Position numbers and translations under genes: made by a program
In this document: piece after piece, positions 11,195-17,594 of the stretch
How positions within the stretch are numbered: the first letter of the stretch is position 1
How the letters are laid out: each line of letters starts with the position of its first letter
Notes under the pieces: model-generated
The model's database searches: none
What the model was told of the DNA's origin: nothing
What the model saw: the letters and a program-made list of their open reading frames with translations, nothing else
NCBI GenBank assembly: GCA_016929715.1
Contig: JAFGIG010000115.1
Span: 1-47,664, forward strand
Direction of reading: 5' to 3'
DNA from: Caldifarciminota bacterium
GTDB lineage: Bacteria; SDB-A
Length of the DNA: 47,664 nucleotides

Positions 11195-11224
11195 TTGATT
11201 TTTAATTCTATGTTGTTCTATCAT
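11195..11224 (+). promoter_or_regulatory. Candidate sigma70-type promoter for the methionine-operon leader
   Basis: TTGATT (11195-11200), 18-nt spacer, TATCAT (11219-11224). Confidence 0.4.
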
Positions 11225-11250
11225 TCCGAATCTCATTAAAGGAGGACAGG

Positions 11251-11373
11251 ATGATAGACATTTTTAATGCTGAAGCCTGCGGGCTTTCATGCACCGGGAT
11301 AAGTGAACTGACACCCGGCGTCCTTGCATCCGAAAGAATCATGCCCTCTCATTACATGCGAATGCGCGTGTAG
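11251..11373 (+). CDS. Candidate 40-aa leader peptide MIDIFNAEACGLSCTGISELTPGVLASERIMPSHYMRMRV
   Basis: ATG preceded by AAAGGAGGACAGG. TAG at 11371-11373. Three of its four Met codons lie in the last ten codons, and the 3' end overlaps a terminator hairpin. Below the length cut-off of the supplied ORF track. Confidence 0.5.
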   Translation: MIDIFNAEACGLSCTGISELTPGVLASERIMPSHYMRMRV

Positions 11374-11380
11374 TTTTTTT
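11353..11380 (+). terminator. Intrinsic terminator / candidate attenuator overlapping the 3' end of the leader ORF
   Basis: TACATGCG-AATG-CGCGTGTA: 8-bp stem with one U-G pair and a 4-nt loop, followed by G and TTTTTTT. Confidence 0.6.
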
Positions 11381-11448
11381 CCAAAAAAAAAAGAAAACAA
11401 GAAAAAACACAGAACCTGCCGCGGTTTTCCGCGCGTTAAGAGGGCAAT

Positions 11449-12666
11449 ATGAAAAAATCTTTTGAAGAAATCAAAGAAAAAATAAAGGCAGGAAAGGGAG
11501 TTGTCTTAACTGCCGAAGAGTTCAAGGAACTTGCGCGTGAAAAAACGCCCAAAGAACTCGCCGAAAAAGTCGATGTCGTCACAACGGCGACTTTTTCTCC
11601 AATGTGTTCAAGCGGGGCGTTTTTGAATTTCAAAAATTGCCGTCCGCCGATACGAATGGAAGAAATTTACTTAAACGGCGTGCGTGCCCATGCCGGTATT
11701 GCCGCGGCGGACGCTTATGTCGGAGCCACACAGATTTCAGAGGAAAATCCCGAATACGGGGGTGCAAATGTCATACACTCGCTTGTCAAAGGAGAAAAAA
11801 TCCTTCTTGAGGCGAAAGCCAAGGGCACCGACTGCTATCCGAAAAAAAATCTTAAAGTTTTAGTCGATAAATCAGGCATAAATGAGGCTTTTCTGTTCAA
11901 CCCGAGAAACGCCTATCAAAACTATGCCGCTGCCGTGAATACATCCGAAAAAGATCTTCAGACGTATATGGGAATCCTCGTCAGAAACTGCGGAAATATT
12001 AATTTCTGCACGGCAGGAGAAATCAGCCCTTTGATAAACGATCCTTTTCTTGAAGCGATAGGAATTGGAACTAAGATATTTCTCTGCGGCGCCCAAGGTT
12101 TTGTGTGCTGGAACGGCACTCAGCATGATACTTGCCCCAAAAGAAACAATCGCGGGATCCCTCTTAAAAATGCAGCTTCAATTTCAGTCATAGGAGATTT
12201 GAAAAAAATGGATAGAAACTTTATCTCGCCTGTATATTTTAAGGGTTATGGTTTGAGCCTGTATGTCGGAATAGGAATCCCCATTCCAATAATTGACGAA
12301 AATGCGGCGTTTTACGCCGCGGTCAGAAACTCGGAAATTGACGTCCCTCTCGTTGATTTTTCTTCTGAAGAAAAGAAGGTTCTTAAATATTTCAAATATG
12401 AAGAGCTTTTATCGGGCAAAGCCGAGATAAAAGGAAAAAAAGTGAAGACAAACCTTATATCCGGACTGAGAAAGTCAAAAAAAATCTCCTGCTTGCTCAA
12501 AATGAATATACTTTCCGGCGATTTCATTATAACAGAATTATCCTCCCGTCTTCCGGAAGCGGGCAAGACTAAATCTCTTGTTTTGAAATCTGATAAAAGA
12601 AAGGTCAAAAAGAGCGAGAGAAAGGTTTTGCCGTCAAGAAAAATGGAGGAGTCATGTCCGGTTTAA
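11449..12666 (+). CDS. COG1900/DUF39 homocysteine biosynthesis protein (L-aspartate semialdehyde sulfurtransferase family)
   Basis: DUF39-type sequence (SSGAFLNFKNCRPPIRMEEIYLNGVRAHAGIAAADAYVGATQ; NCGNINFCTAGEISPLINDPFL). No obvious CBS or ferredoxin domain. Confidence 0.85.
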   Translation: MKKSFEEIKEKIKAGKGVVLTAEEFKELAREKTPKELAEKVDVVTTATFSPMCSSGAFLNFKNCRPPIRMEEIYLNGVRAHAGIAAADAYVGATQISEENPEYGGANVIHSLVKGEKILLEAKAKGTDCYPKKNLKVLVDKSGINEAFLFNPRNAYQNYAAAVNTSEKDLQTYMGILVRNCGNINFCTAGEISPLINDPFLEAIGIGTKIFLCGAQGFVCWNGTQHDTCPKRNNRGIPLKNAASISVIGDLKKMDRNFISPVYFKGYGLSLYVGIGIPIPIIDENAAFYAAVRNSEIDVPLVDFSSEEKKVLKYFKYEELLSGKAEIKGKKVKTNLISGLRKSKKISCLLKMNILSGDFIITELSSRLPEAGKTKSLVLKSDKRKVKKSERKVLPSRKMEESCPV

Positions 12667-13403
12667 GATCATACAGAAACAAGACGATGGGAGAGGGGTT
12701 CTGGGTTTTCGAGGCAGGCTTTAAGGACACGGATCTTCAAATAGGCATAAATCCTAAATATTACGACTCTTCAATGCCTGAAAGAATTATAGGTAGAATA
12801 ATTCAAATGAGAATGATTTTTGAAAATCATATATCTTCTTGTCCTCAGTTCTTAAGTTCAATGACAGGAATAGACGCCCCTGAATTTGCAGAAGGCAATA
12901 TCCAAAAACTCTATCTGCTTTCTAAAATTGTAAATGTAGGCCCGATGGCAGGAATTGCCGGATTTTTCGCACAAGAGATAGGCAATTTTATCCAAAGTGA
13001 ATTTTCTGCCGAGGAATTTATCGTCGAAAACGGGGGAGATGTTTTCCTTAAAACAAAATCCAGAATAAACGTGCTTATTGAAACCGGCAATGAATACTTC
13101 GAAAAGGGAATAATCTTGTGTGTTGAACCGTTTCTCACCCCCTGCGGCATCTGCACGTCTTCGGGGAAATTCGGGCATTCGCTAAATCTGGGAAGATCAG
13201 ATTCTTTCACCGTTGTCTGCCAAGACCCTGTTCTTGCCGATATGTTTGCAACTTCGCTCAGCGATGTAATCAAATCGTCGGATGACCTTGAAACAGCACT
13301 CGGGTTTGCAGAAAAAGAGAAGAACATTTTATTCGCTCTCGGGGTATGCGATGGAAAAATCTGTTTGAAGCCCTGCAGCGGGGTAAAAATCTCTCTTTCA
13401 TGA
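12654..13403 (+). CDS. COG2122 / UPF0280 (ApbE-like) protein, probable homocysteine-pathway partner
   Basis: Overlaps the COG1900 ORF by 13 nt. UPF0280-like GPMAGIAGFFAQEIG...VENGGDVFLKT; CGICTSSGKFGHSLNLGRSD. Confidence 0.82.
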   Translation: MSGLRSYRNKTMGEGFWVFEAGFKDTDLQIGINPKYYDSSMPERIIGRIIQMRMIFENHISSCPQFLSSMTGIDAPEFAEGNIQKLYLLSKIVNVGPMAGIAGFFAQEIGNFIQSEFSAEEFIVENGGDVFLKTKSRINVLIETGNEYFEKGIILCVEPFLTPCGICTSSGKFGHSLNLGRSDSFTVVCQDPVLADMFATSLSDVIKSSDDLETALGFAEKEKNILFALGVCDGKICLKPCSGVKISLS

Positions 13404-13412
13404 GGAGAAAAA

Positions 13413-14378
13413 ATGAAAATAACTGAAATAATCCAAAAAAGAGAAAAAACTCTTCTTTCCTTTGAAGTTATCCCTCCCGAAAGAGGAGCGTCTCCGGAAA
13501 GTATTTTCAAGACTATAGACAGAATAATTTGTCATGGACCGAAGTTTATAAGCGTGACAAACAAATGCTGCTCTATTGATTATACTGTCAAAGAAGGAAA
13601 AGTTTATGCAATTTGCAACAATAAAAAACCGGGAACAATAGGTCTGTCTGCCGCCATAAGAAAAGAGTTCGGCGTGGAGACAGTTCCGCATATTATATGC
13701 GCGGGTATGGACCGTTTCAAGACAGAAAATTTACTAATTGATCTGCATTTTTTAGGATTCGAAAATCTTTTCGCTGTCAGAGGCGACCCCATGGATTTGC
13801 GTGCCGGTTTCAAACCTGAAAAAGAGGGTCATATGTTCGCCAGCGAATTGATAAGCCAGATTACGGGTCTTAATCATGGTAAATACACTGAAAAAACATT
13901 TTCGGGAAGAACAGAAGCTACTAATTTCTGTGTCGGCGCGGCTGTTTATCCTGAAAGGCACAATGAATCGCTAAATGATGAGGAAGATATGAAGAATTTC
14001 TCGAGGAAATTTGAATCCGGAGCTTCGTTTGCCATAACTCAGGCTTTTTACGGATTCAATATGTTTAGAAAATTTATAGAAAAAGTCCGCAAATCGGGAA
14101 TAAGCATCCCTGTAATACCGGGATTGAAACCAATTCTTGAAGCCGGCCGGCTCGGAGCGGTTCCGAGAATTTTTTCAGCCACCGTTCCTCCTGAGCTTGT
14201 GAAAAATTTAACAGAAGCAAAAACCCCCGAAAAAGAAAAAGAGGCGGGAATAAAATACATGTCGAGGCTTCTTGAAAAACTGTTGGACTTTGATGTTCCT
14301 TGCGTTCATCTTTTTACAATGGGAAACGCAAAATCAGTCAACTGTATTCTCGAAAACTTTCGCGGTTGTTTTACCTGA
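13413..14378 (+). CDS. metF: Methylenetetrahydrofolate reductase
   Basis: SFEVIPPERG, FGVETVPHIICAGMDRF, LFAVRGDP, ITQAFYGFNMFRKF, IPVIPGLKPI. Confidence 0.92.
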   Translation: MKITEIIQKREKTLLSFEVIPPERGASPESIFKTIDRIICHGPKFISVTNKCCSIDYTVKEGKVYAICNNKKPGTIGLSAAIRKEFGVETVPHIICAGMDRFKTENLLIDLHFLGFENLFAVRGDPMDLRAGFKPEKEGHMFASELISQITGLNHGKYTEKTFSGRTEATNFCVGAAVYPERHNESLNDEEDMKNFSRKFESGASFAITQAFYGFNMFRKFIEKVRKSGISIPVIPGLKPILEAGRLGAVPRIFSATVPPELVKNLTEAKTPEKEKEAGIKYMSRLLEKLLDFDVPCVHLFTMGNAKSVNCILENFRGCFT

Positions 14379-14392
14379 ACTTGGAGTGAACC

Positions 14393-16888
14393 ATGAGAGA
14401 GATAACTGATGTTTTAATAAATGATGGACATGTGATTTTTGACGGAGGCATGGGGACCGCCATAGAGATTTCGATAAAAAACAGCGGGGCTGAAAGCGTC
14501 AACGAAAAGCTGAACCTGACTCATCCTGCTGTCATTGAGGAGATTCACCGGGGTTTTTTAGAAGCGGGTTGCGACATTATAGAGACAAATACGTTCGGCG
14601 GCGACTATCTGACGCTAGAAGACAAAGGTCTCGGACAGTTATGCCATGAGATAAATGCGCAAGGAGCTCTAATAGCAAAAAAAGCCGCCGGAGAATATTC
14701 TAAATACGGAAAAAAAAGATACGTGTGCGGGTCTGTGGGGCCTGGAAGAAAGTATCCGGTTTTGGGAGATGGTTCTTTTGACGAACTGGAAAAATCATAT
14801 AATAAACAAATAGAAGGGCTTCTTTCAGGCGGGGTTGACATGCTGGGAATAGAAACTTGCCAGGATCCTCTCCAGATAAAAGCTGTCCTTTCTGCATGTG
14901 ACGCAATATTCAGAGAAAAAAAGATTAAAGTCCCGATAATTGTTTTAATAAGCCCTGGGGTAAACTGCAGAACCGCGGCAGGCATGTCTTGCGAGTCTTT
15001 TTTGGGGACATTTCAGTCGTATCCTCTCTTCGCCGTAGGATTAAACTGCGGGTTCGGGCCCCTGCAGTCGGAAAAACCTCTCGAAGAAATGTGCGGAAAA
15101 TCTCATTTTGAAATTGTCTATATGCCAAACGCAGGATTGCCGCGCATAGATGGCTTGAAAGTAATCTATGACTGCGGACCTGAGGAATTTGCGGATGTCG
15201 TCTTTAGGCAATCGGTTAAATTCGGTTTGAGAATCGTAGGCGGATGCTGCGGGACTACTTTCAGGCATATAGAAGAACTCAGAAAGCGTTTCGAAGGAGT
15301 GAAAATCCCCGCTCGAAAAATAGACTTATCCCATTCTCTCTCTTCCCTGTATTCCGCTTATAGAAAAAAAGATCTTCCAAAACCTTTTATGATAAGCGAA
15401 AAGACGAGCGTGTCCGGAAGCAAAAAGTTCAAAAAAGCTGTTGAGGAAAGGAATTTTCCGGCTATTAGAGAAATTGCCGTTGGCGAAGAAACGAAAGGCG
15501 CCCACTGCATTGACATCTGTCTTGCCTGTCCGGGAAGAAACGAAATTGAAGATTACGATGCAATAACAGCTTTTCTTTCCGGTATTATGAAAGTTCCCGT
15601 TTGCGCTGATACGTTCTGCGAAAAATCATTGGAAGTTTTTCTGAAAAAATATCCAGGAAAGCCGCTTGTCAATTCAGCTAATATCGGAGACAGAGAAAAA
15701 TCAGATAAAATATTTGAACTCGTAAAAATATTTGGAGCCTCGGTCGTGTGCATTCTCGCTGATGAGAAGGGATACGCTGTCGGTATAGAGAGAAAAATTC
15801 AAACGGCTGAAAAAATATATAGTTCCGCCGTTGGAGTTCACGGTGTTCTTCCACAAGATATCTTTTTCGACCCACTTACATTTTCACTCGCTTCAGGAGA
15901 TCCGGTCACCGCCGCGAGCCTTAAAGCTACAATAGATTCGATAGGAATTCTTAAAGAAAAATTTCCAAAATCCGGCGTAATACTGGGAGTAAGCAACGTT
16001 TCATTCGGTTTCGGCAGAGGGCAAAGAAGAATCCTGAATTCAGTTTATTTTCATCTTGCGGTCAAGTCTGGTCTGGACGCCGCAATAACTGATATAGACT
16101 CTATACTGCCCCTTTCACAGATCCCCGCGAAAATAGTAAAAAGCGCCGAAAAGCTGATACTCTCAGATCCTGAGGATTACATCCAAAACTTGAGGATGTT
16201 TTTAGGCGAAAAAATCGGCGGGGAAGCGAATATTTCCGCTTCAAAGTGTTTTTTGACCGATAGAGAAAAGCTGTTCTCGTCTGTGATATACGGAGAGGAC
16301 AAAGACCTGGATGAAATTATTGGAAGGCTTCTTCTGAAGATGCCGGCTGATAAAATTCTGAAAGAAATACTGCTGCCTTCAATGAAGAAAGTGGGTGAAA
16401 TGTTCGAAAAAGGCGAGACTTTGCTTCCGTTTGTCATGTTTTCGTCCGGGGTCATGAATAAGTCTCTTGAAATACTTGCGCCTCAATCCAAATCAAAAAC
16501 AGGGAATCGAAAAAGAAAAATACTCCTTGCAACTGTGAAAGGCGATATCCATGACATAGGAAAAAATATTGTAAAAATAATAATGGAAAACAGCGGTATC
16601 GAAGTTGTCGATCTGGGAGTTGACAAAACCGACGAAGAAATCGCTTCTGCCGTCAGAAAACACTGTCCCGACTGCGTGGGTTTAAGCGGCCTTCTTGTTT
16701 ATTCGGCTCTATACATAAAAAAAGTCGCCGAGAAATTCGTCGCAGAAGGGATTAGTGTTCCTATAATCTGCGGCGGAGCAGCGCTTTGCGAGCAATATGC
16801 CGCAGAATTGAGGAAGTCTCTTAAAAAAAATATATTCTTCGCCGGGGACGCTTTTGCCGCTATGAAGATTATGGAAAGTGAATTATAA
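14393..16888 (+). CDS. metH: Cobalamin-dependent methionine synthase lacking the C-terminal reactivation domain
   Basis: DGGMGTAIE start. Zn-site motifs GLNCGFGP and VGGCCGTT. Pterin-binding region. Cobalamin motif KGDIHDIGKNIV. Ends after the B12 domain. Confidence 0.93.
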   Translation: MREITDVLINDGHVIFDGGMGTAIEISIKNSGAESVNEKLNLTHPAVIEEIHRGFLEAGCDIIETNTFGGDYLTLEDKGLGQLCHEINAQGALIAKKAAGEYSKYGKKRYVCGSVGPGRKYPVLGDGSFDELEKSYNKQIEGLLSGGVDMLGIETCQDPLQIKAVLSACDAIFREKKIKVPIIVLISPGVNCRTAAGMSCESFLGTFQSYPLFAVGLNCGFGPLQSEKPLEEMCGKSHFEIVYMPNAGLPRIDGLKVIYDCGPEEFADVVFRQSVKFGLRIVGGCCGTTFRHIEELRKRFEGVKIPARKIDLSHSLSSLYSAYRKKDLPKPFMISEKTSVSGSKKFKKAVEERNFPAIREIAVGEETKGAHCIDICLACPGRNEIEDYDAITAFLSGIMKVPVCADTFCEKSLEVFLKKYPGKPLVNSANIGDREKSDKIFELVKIFGASVVCILADEKGYAVGIERKIQTAEKIYSSAVGVHGVLPQDIFFDPLTFSLASGDPVTAASLKATIDSIGILKEKFPKSGVILGVSNVSFGFGRGQRRILNSVYFHLAVKSGLDAAITDIDSILPLSQIPAKIVKSAEKLILSDPEDYIQNLRMFLGEKIGGEANISASKCFLTDREKLFSSVIYGEDKDLDEIIGRLLLKMPADKILKEILLPSMKKVGEMFEKGETLLPFVMFSSGVMNKSLEILAPQSKSKTGNRKRKILLATVKGDIHDIGKNIVKIIMENSGIEVVDLGVDKTDEEIASAVRKHCPDCVGLSGLLVYSALYIKKVAEKFVAEGISVPIICGGAALCEQYAAELRKSLKKNIFFAGDAFAAMKIMESEL

Positions 16889-17594
16889 AAAATATATGGA
16901 AAAGGCAAAATCTTTGACTACTGTCCTCAAAGACATACCCCTGTCAGAAGTTCTCGTTTATATCGACAGGAGAACTCTTTTCAACGCCAGATGGAATCTT
17001 AAAGACGGTGTCCTGGCAAAAACATTCAATTTTGATCCTGAAGAAAAACTCAAAGAGATAGTGCGAATAGTTGAAGAGAAAAAAATTCCGCACCTGAGCC
17101 TTTCTTTCAGTGTTTTCAGGTTTATAAAAAAAAACAACCGAGTTGAAGTCGAAAAAGACGGCGGCGGAAAAACCTTTTCCGTTTTTTGTTTTCCTGAAAA
17201 AATTTCACCCGAAGACAGAGACGTCAGTTATTTTTTCAGGAAAAAAGAGAATGTTGAAAGAGGCGCTCTTTTTGCTGTGACTGCGGGAGGCGGTTTCAAT
17301 AAAGAGCTGAGAAGCCTTTTAGACAGAAAAAGATACGGGGATTATTTTTTACTAAACGGCTTTGCTTGCGAAATTACTGAAGCGGCGGCGAAATTCGTAA
17401 ACAAAAAAATCCAAATGTCAGCCGGTGTTCTAAAAAGCAGGCGATACGGCTTCGGCTATCCAGGATGCCCGGATATTTCTCAGCACAATAAAATACTCGG
17501 ACCCCTGAACGCGCACGCTTTGGGCATCAGATTGACCGAGAGTTTCCAGATAGTCCCGGAATTCAGCACATGCGGGTTTATAGTCTTCGACTGA
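16878..17594 (+). CDS. Stand-alone MetH activation (AdoMet-binding) domain protein
   Basis: RYGFGYPGCPD...LGIRLTESFQIVPEFSTCGFIV resembles the MetH reactivation-domain signature. Overlaps metH by 11 nt. Confidence 0.85.
   Translation: MNYKKYMEKAKSLTTVLKDIPLSEVLVYIDRRTLFNARWNLKDGVLAKTFNFDPEEKLKEIVRIVEEKKIPHLSLSFSVFRFIKKNNRVEVEKDGGGKTFSVFCFPEKISPEDRDVSYFFRKKENVERGALFAVTAGGGFNKELRSLLDRKRYGDYFLLNGFACEITEAAAKFVNKKIQMSAGVLKSRRYGFGYPGCPDISQHNKILGPLNAHALGIRLTESFQIVPEFSTCGFIVFD

Follow-up and report, generated by a model that had tools for sequence, protein, structure and literature searches.

Methionine genes are otherwise controlled by SAM riboswitches, methionine T-boxes, MetJ, MetR or SahR. For other amino acids, the classical attenuator model assumes that a ribosome located at the control codons of a leader peptide favours the formation of an antiterminator. 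The leader described here resembles the trp, his, phe, leu, ilv and thr attenuators in consisting of a short open reading frame (ORF) with a good Shine-Dalgarno (SD) site, control codons for the product of the pathway and an intrinsic terminator before the first gene. It differs from them in its Met control codons, in a terminator overlapping the end of the leader, in the apparent lack of an antiterminator and in a signal amino acid which is also needed for initiation. The terminators of amino acid attenuators follow the leader at a distance of more than 20 bp, which prevents the ribosome from blocking them (PMC4824070).

In terms of this overlap, a related system is the pyrBI leader of enteric bacteria, whose terminator lies within the leader ORF and is therefore blocked by a close ribosome (PMC4824070). 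However, pyrBI senses UTP via pausing of RNA polymerase, whereas the conserved feature of the leader described here is a set of Met codons, and UTP-dependent polymerase pausing is not expected for a methionine operon. Cys, likewise a sulfur amino acid, provides the control codons of the cysS upstream ORF of Rhodobacterales, which are part of the first stem, ahead of a terminator-like end (PMC8632094), and those of the cys operons of Mycobacterium, which carry runs of Cys codons near the stop codon without a terminator (PMC1262725), similar to the leader of genome G003 presented below. These Cys-codon ORFs represent another amino acid, another operon and other phyla, and no sequence relation to them is known. 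A Met leader peptide is reported neither for methionine regulation in Proteobacteria (PMC4239095) nor among the leader peptides of Actinobacteria (PMC1262725), and a full-text search of the open-licence literature yielded none, a report elsewhere being possible.

Leader ORF and operon

The window, i.e., the whole stretch of 47,664 nucleotides analysed here, contains an operon of five genes which is preceded by a short ORF with a Met-rich end (Table 1). The first-pass annotation had proposed a leader-peptide attenuator at this site, and a direct reading located all of its elements where they had been described: the promoter-like pair, AAAGGAGG, the 40-codon ORF, the terminal hairpin, the U7 tract and the ATG of the HcyBio gene. 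The promoter pattern was not enriched over shuffled sequences in our scan (6 found vs. 4.8 expected); the -10 region is kept in genome G002 of the same genus, where the stretch TATCATTCCGAA is identical. The leader peptide showed no match in Pfam.

Table 1. Coordinates of the leader, its predicted RNA elements and the genes of the downstream operon (positions in the window).
Feature	Position	Strand	Evidence
Candidate promoter of leader and operon, TTGATT-18-TATCAT	11195..11224	+	Motif scan; part identical in G002
SD site of leader ORF, AAGGAGG	11240..11246	+	Sequence; conserved in G002, present in G003
Leader peptide ORF, 40 codons, MIDIFNAEACGLSCTGISELTPGVLASERIMPSHYMRMRV-stop, C-terminus IMPSHYMRMRV-stop	11251..11373	+	ORF list; counterparts in G002 and G003
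Conserved tail with Met codons 31, 36 and 38	11338..11373	+	Same 11 residues in G002, with 3 of 36 nt changed
UGCCCUCU, predicted to pair with HcyBio ribosome-binding site AGAGGGCA	11342..11349	+	Fold; duplex test
Intrinsic-terminator hairpin, 10 pairs, loop AAUG, plus U7; stop codon and two Met codons inside	11351..11380	+	Fold; kept in G002
Short GC hairpin (loop UUUU) immediately 5' of HcyBio SD, plus SD GAGGG (11440-11444)	11420..11445	+	Fold, with a slight gain over shuffles only
HcyBio (DUF39/COG1900), homocysteine-forming enzyme, first operon gene	11449..12666	+	PF01837, E 3.6e-130
UPF0280/COG2122-type protein (PRK04334 models)	12654..13403	+	NCBIfam NF003323, E 5e-45, below model cut-off
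Methylenetetrahydrofolate reductase (MTHFR)	13413..14378	+	PF02219, E 1e-52
B12-dependent methionine synthase (MetH) without activation domain	14393..16888	+	PF02574, PF00809, PF02607, PF02310
Separate methionine synthase activation-domain protein	16878..17594	+	PF02965, E 2.4e-11

The usual partner of HcyBio is a NIL/ferredoxin protein, and no NIL-domain protein was found in four genomes of the phylum (G000-G003). The HcyBio of G003 carries a ferredoxin-like C-terminal extension, as judged by its cysteine pattern (L004:1492-2904), which the HcyBio of the window lacks. In Desulfovibrio, homocysteine formation requires HcyBio together with the COG2122 protein, as shown genetically (PMC5764234). 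The methionine synthase encoded by the operon is split into two proteins, whose genes overlap by 11 bases (14393-17594): one of 831 aa comprises the catalytic part and the B12 part, the other, of 238 aa, the activation domain.

The tail of the leader ORF contains the two Met codons inside the hairpin that had been noted before, and additionally a third one, M31 (11341), just 5' of the stem. Among 240 SD-preceded ORFs of 12-70 codons in 77% of this genome, the last 12 residues contained no Met in 196 cases, one in 41, two in 2 and three in a single case, and this only ORF with at least three Met is the leader itself. Based on the background frequency of about 0.017 Met per residue in the same 240 ORFs, five Met in 12 residues, as present in the leader of G003, would be expected about once per million ORFs (binomial estimate).

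The end of the ORF folds into the predicted terminator hairpin with its 4-nt loop, although its stem allows 10 instead of 8 pairs (11351-11360 with 11365-11374, G-U included). The U7 tract is located at 11374-11380, and the terminator indeed lies 69 nt ahead of the HcyBio ATG (11449). The hairpin energy of -12.0 kcal/mol compares with -4.4 kcal/mol for shuffled sequences (z -4.1), none of 200 shuffles being as good. A strict scan of 1.53 Mb, representing 77% of this genome, returned 139 terminators, and a short SD-preceded ORF with its stop codon in or at most 60 nt before the terminator and a gene downstream was found at five places. The leader is the only one of the five with a stop codon inside the terminator stem, and the other four look unrelated. 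The stability of the hairpin against shuffles and the uniqueness of both the ORF-terminator overlap and the Met-rich tail in the genome indicate that the element goes beyond chance. A tract of A10 directly follows the U7 (11374-11390, UUUUUUUCCAAAAAAAAAA) and might, after its transcription, fold onto these U residues. A second hairpin further upstream (11290-11330) had been suggested as part of a switch; this was not borne out, as the 5' part of the ORF folds no better than shuffles (z -0.57) and the hairpin at the same place in G002 has a different sequence.

Known RNAs and HcyBio loci of other phyla

The earlier failure to recognise a riboswitch agrees with the result of an Rfam search, which returned nothing above the gathering score for the window, the matches with E values under 10 being at chance level. 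A known riboswitch or another Rfam RNA as an explanation of the element was rejected on the basis of this lack of a covariance-model match at the gathering level. A search of the four genomes of the phylum revealed neither SAM-I riboswitches nor T-boxes. In other phyla, the SAM-I riboswitch (RF00162) occupies the same place as the leader, directly before HcyBio, in 15 of 37 loci scanned. These SAM-I-bearing loci are of Bacillota and Bacteroidota type (L026, L027, L029, L031, L040, L044, L058, L062, L065, L068, L069, L074, L079, L090 and L094). An SD-preceded ORF with at least three Met at its end was present in none of 90 HcyBio loci of other phyla. Searching the genome collection with the HcyBio protein alone yielded no relatives; a query built from an alignment of three HcyBio sequences retrieved 80 loci, none of which showed the leader except for the record of G003 itself.

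Conservation of the leader within the phylum

Within the phylum, the comparison covered four genomes and yielded three leaders from two genera of one small phylum. In the corresponding interval of G002, which is likewise bounded by pmbA and HcyBio, there is a leader of the sequence MKNIFAQTSEAGVIFCGAVESPDFSTQSSKSIMPSHYMRMRV-stop. The last 11 residues are identical to those of the window, and their codons together with the stop codon differ by three bases (ATC/ATT, TCT/TCC and TAG/TAA), i.e., by two synonymous changes and an exchange of the stop codon. The three codons preceding this tail already show two non-synonymous changes, the middle of the leader has diverged, and its N-terminal part can hardly be aligned. 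Because the four-fold degenerate sites of the HcyBio genes are only 30% identical between the two genomes and thus saturated, the conservation of the tail is not due to a lack of divergence time. The SD site and the hairpin are also kept in G002, as is a U tract after the hairpin, which is placed a few bases further on.

A different leader was detected in G003, which belongs to another genus of the same family. Its ORF of 52 codons is non-homologous, ends in FNMHMCAMPMGMWN-stop and occupies the same place before an operon with the gene order HcyBio, COG2122-type, MTHFR and MetH. The tail NMHMCAMPMGMWN-stop contains five Met in the last 12 residues, and Met codons are the sole feature which it has in common with the tails of the window and G002. 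The G003 contig (L030; LKUE01000318) was deposited as 'Desulfuromonas sp. SDB' and groups with this phylum in the genome set used, whereas the NCBI taxonomy places it with Desulfuromonas. The fourth genome, G001, belongs to the same genus as the window and contains neither HcyBio nor a full-length MetH nor the tail motif; judged from its gene content, this organism, whose genome is rated 100% complete, is possibly a methionine auxotroph. Aligning the upstream regions, as had been recommended, revealed a short ORF with terminal Met codons in the window, G002 and G003, and a terminator stem that is kept in G002; no canonical terminator was found in G003.

The preservation of eleven tail residues in G002 while the remainder of the leader diverged would also be expected if the tail were a nascent-chain arrest sequence, which senses a small molecule such as SAM, Met or a drug rather than the charging of Met-tRNA. 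Its MRMR motif is similar to the Arg-X-Arg motif of macrolide-dependent leader peptides, and an Arg-Leu-Arg motif is found in known drug-sensing leaders (PMC8632094). We regard an arrest peptide as highly improbable: G003 has retained the Met codons but nothing of the peptide sequence, the hairpin imposes a constraint of its own on much of the tail, the genes that follow serve methionine synthesis instead of resistance, and a ribosome at the stop codon leaves the HcyBio SD closed according to fold prediction.

It is likewise improbable that the element has nothing to do with Met sensing and is simply a gene for a small protein or a short RNA, ended by an ordinary terminator of its own, the operon being transcribed by partial read-through. 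The hairpin with its U7 tract is a good terminator, and an overlap with the gene end is known for some terminators (PMC4824070). Against this, conservation does not extend to the central part of the peptide, so that it is no small protein of the conventional kind, two unrelated leaders have retained a Met-rich end, and the overlap of ORF and terminator is the only one of its kind in 77% of the genome.

A potentially translated short ORF with an SD site is present directly before the operon in the window, G002 and G003, with three Met codons in the last 10 residues in the former two and five in the last 12 in the latter. The short ORF, its Met-rich end and its place before the operon are conserved by comparison, and the overlapping terminator hairpin is conserved within the genus. 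Because two leaders without common sequence both end in Met codons, their shared function appears to be the decoding of Met. We propose that the Met-codon leader peptide probably senses the Met supply via the ribosome and thereby controls the operon coding for HcyBio, the COG2122-type protein, MTHFR, MetH and the activation-domain protein. Since only the Met codons are common to the leaders of G003 and the window, the signal is likely to be the decoding of these codons, and hence the charging of Met-tRNA. The central claim of the first-pass annotation, a Met-codon leader peptide before a homocysteine/methionine operon, thus gains support from the tail kept in the genus, the non-homologous Met-rich tail in another genus and the absence of a riboswitch match.

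Terminator and ribosome position

The output of such a leader was originally assumed to be classical transcription attenuation: a ribosome stalled at the pair of Met codons which the hairpin contains would block the terminator, while fast translation and release would allow it to form. This is consistent with the conservation of a hairpin and U tract overlapping the Met codons in two genomes and with the observation that no foldable terminator RNA is left once the A site of the ribosome has reached codon 33 or beyond. A precedent is provided by the cysS leader of Rhodobacterales, which is of the terminator type with control codons inside the first stem (PMC8632094). Nevertheless, the geometry renders the proposed mechanism rather unlikely. 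When RNA polymerase is positioned at the U7 tract (11380), the RNA past about 11365 (about 15 nt) should be inside the enzyme, and because the footprint of a ribosome extends 10-13 nt past the A site, the closest A site would be at codon 34-35. On the basis of these footprints, Met36 and Met38 would be decoded only after the polymerase has passed the terminator. Moreover, the stop codon lies inside the stem instead of more than 20 bp upstream of the terminator as in amino acid attenuators (PMC4824070), neither a competing antiterminator nor a conserved competing stem upstream of the terminator was seen, and no canonical terminator was detected for the leader of G003.

We also simulated the race between ribosome and polymerase with a simple model and assumed E. 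coli-like rates, which serves as a plausibility check only. When a ribosome stalled at Met31 was taken to block the hairpin, Met decoding had no effect on read-through, which otherwise decreased with Met shortage; a ribosome stalled at Met31 leaves -8.8 of the -12.0 kcal/mol of terminator energy. Within the limits of this check, the terminator would plausibly respond to translation of the leader as such, similar to pyrBI, and not to the Met supply in the expected direction. As a first step of the proposed mechanism, a ribosome following close behind RNA polymerase would cover the tail and stop the overlapping terminator from folding, similar to the pyrBI leader, and no operon transcript would be produced from an untranslated leader.

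Predicted unmasking of the HcyBio ribosome-binding site

A second step may act on translation. If Met-tRNA is scarce, the ribosome would wait at Met31, Met36 or Met38 and cover UGCCCUCU, leaving the HcyBio ribosome-binding site unpaired and HcyBio translated; with plentiful Met, it would reach the stop codon, and the ribosome-binding site would close again. We folded the leader for every codon position of a ribosome and computed the probability that the HcyBio SD is unpaired. In the window, the SD opens only with the A site at 11332-11362, a zone which takes in Met31, Met36 and Met38 and reaches no further than the last of them. The probability increased from 0.02 to about 0.5 in this zone and was again 0.02 from codon 39 on. 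The duplex between tail and ribosome-binding site was significant in the window (p 0.0025) but weaker and not significant in G002 (p 0.067) and G003 (p 0.059). In G003, the SD opened modestly (0.2 to 0.47), mainly around the first two Met codons of the tail, and no unmasking was predicted for G002, where a local stem holds the SD at every ribosome position. This second step has the expected sign, yet it rests on folding predictions which fail in G002, and we put forward unmasking of the HcyBio ribosome-binding site as the output only tentatively, as a somewhat doubtful possibility. It would resemble the ermC-type translational attenuators in that, according to the fold prediction for the window, stalling of a ribosome in the leader would release the HcyBio SD, but the signal here is an amino acid and not a drug, and the prediction does not extend to G002.

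The GC hairpin before the HcyBio SD is also present in G002 with changed arms. The sequence CGCGCGU before the SD could pair with the 3' arm of the terminator (-12.4 and -15.3 kcal/mol); this pairing was rejected as likely due to chance, both stretches being CG-alternating. It cannot act in antitermination because it is transcribed too late.

Implications

Methionine is an awkward signal for a leader peptide because every ORF also starts with Met. As Met is needed for initiation as well, Met shortage would cut translation of the leader itself, which counts against a Met leader. Within the open-licence literature searched, the leader represents ribosome-mediated control with a new amino acid specificity and an unusual overlapping geometry. 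It may, although we would not yet bet on it, be the first Met-codon leader of a methionine operon in which control codons, stop codon and terminator stem share one hairpin, acting on both the HcyBio ribosome-binding site and the terminator and taking the place of SAM-I in this phylum. A leader with a terminator lying over its control codons would offer a test of how the position of a ribosome can be read out without the classical geometry, and two sensors without relation to each other would control the same gene, HcyBio, in different phyla.
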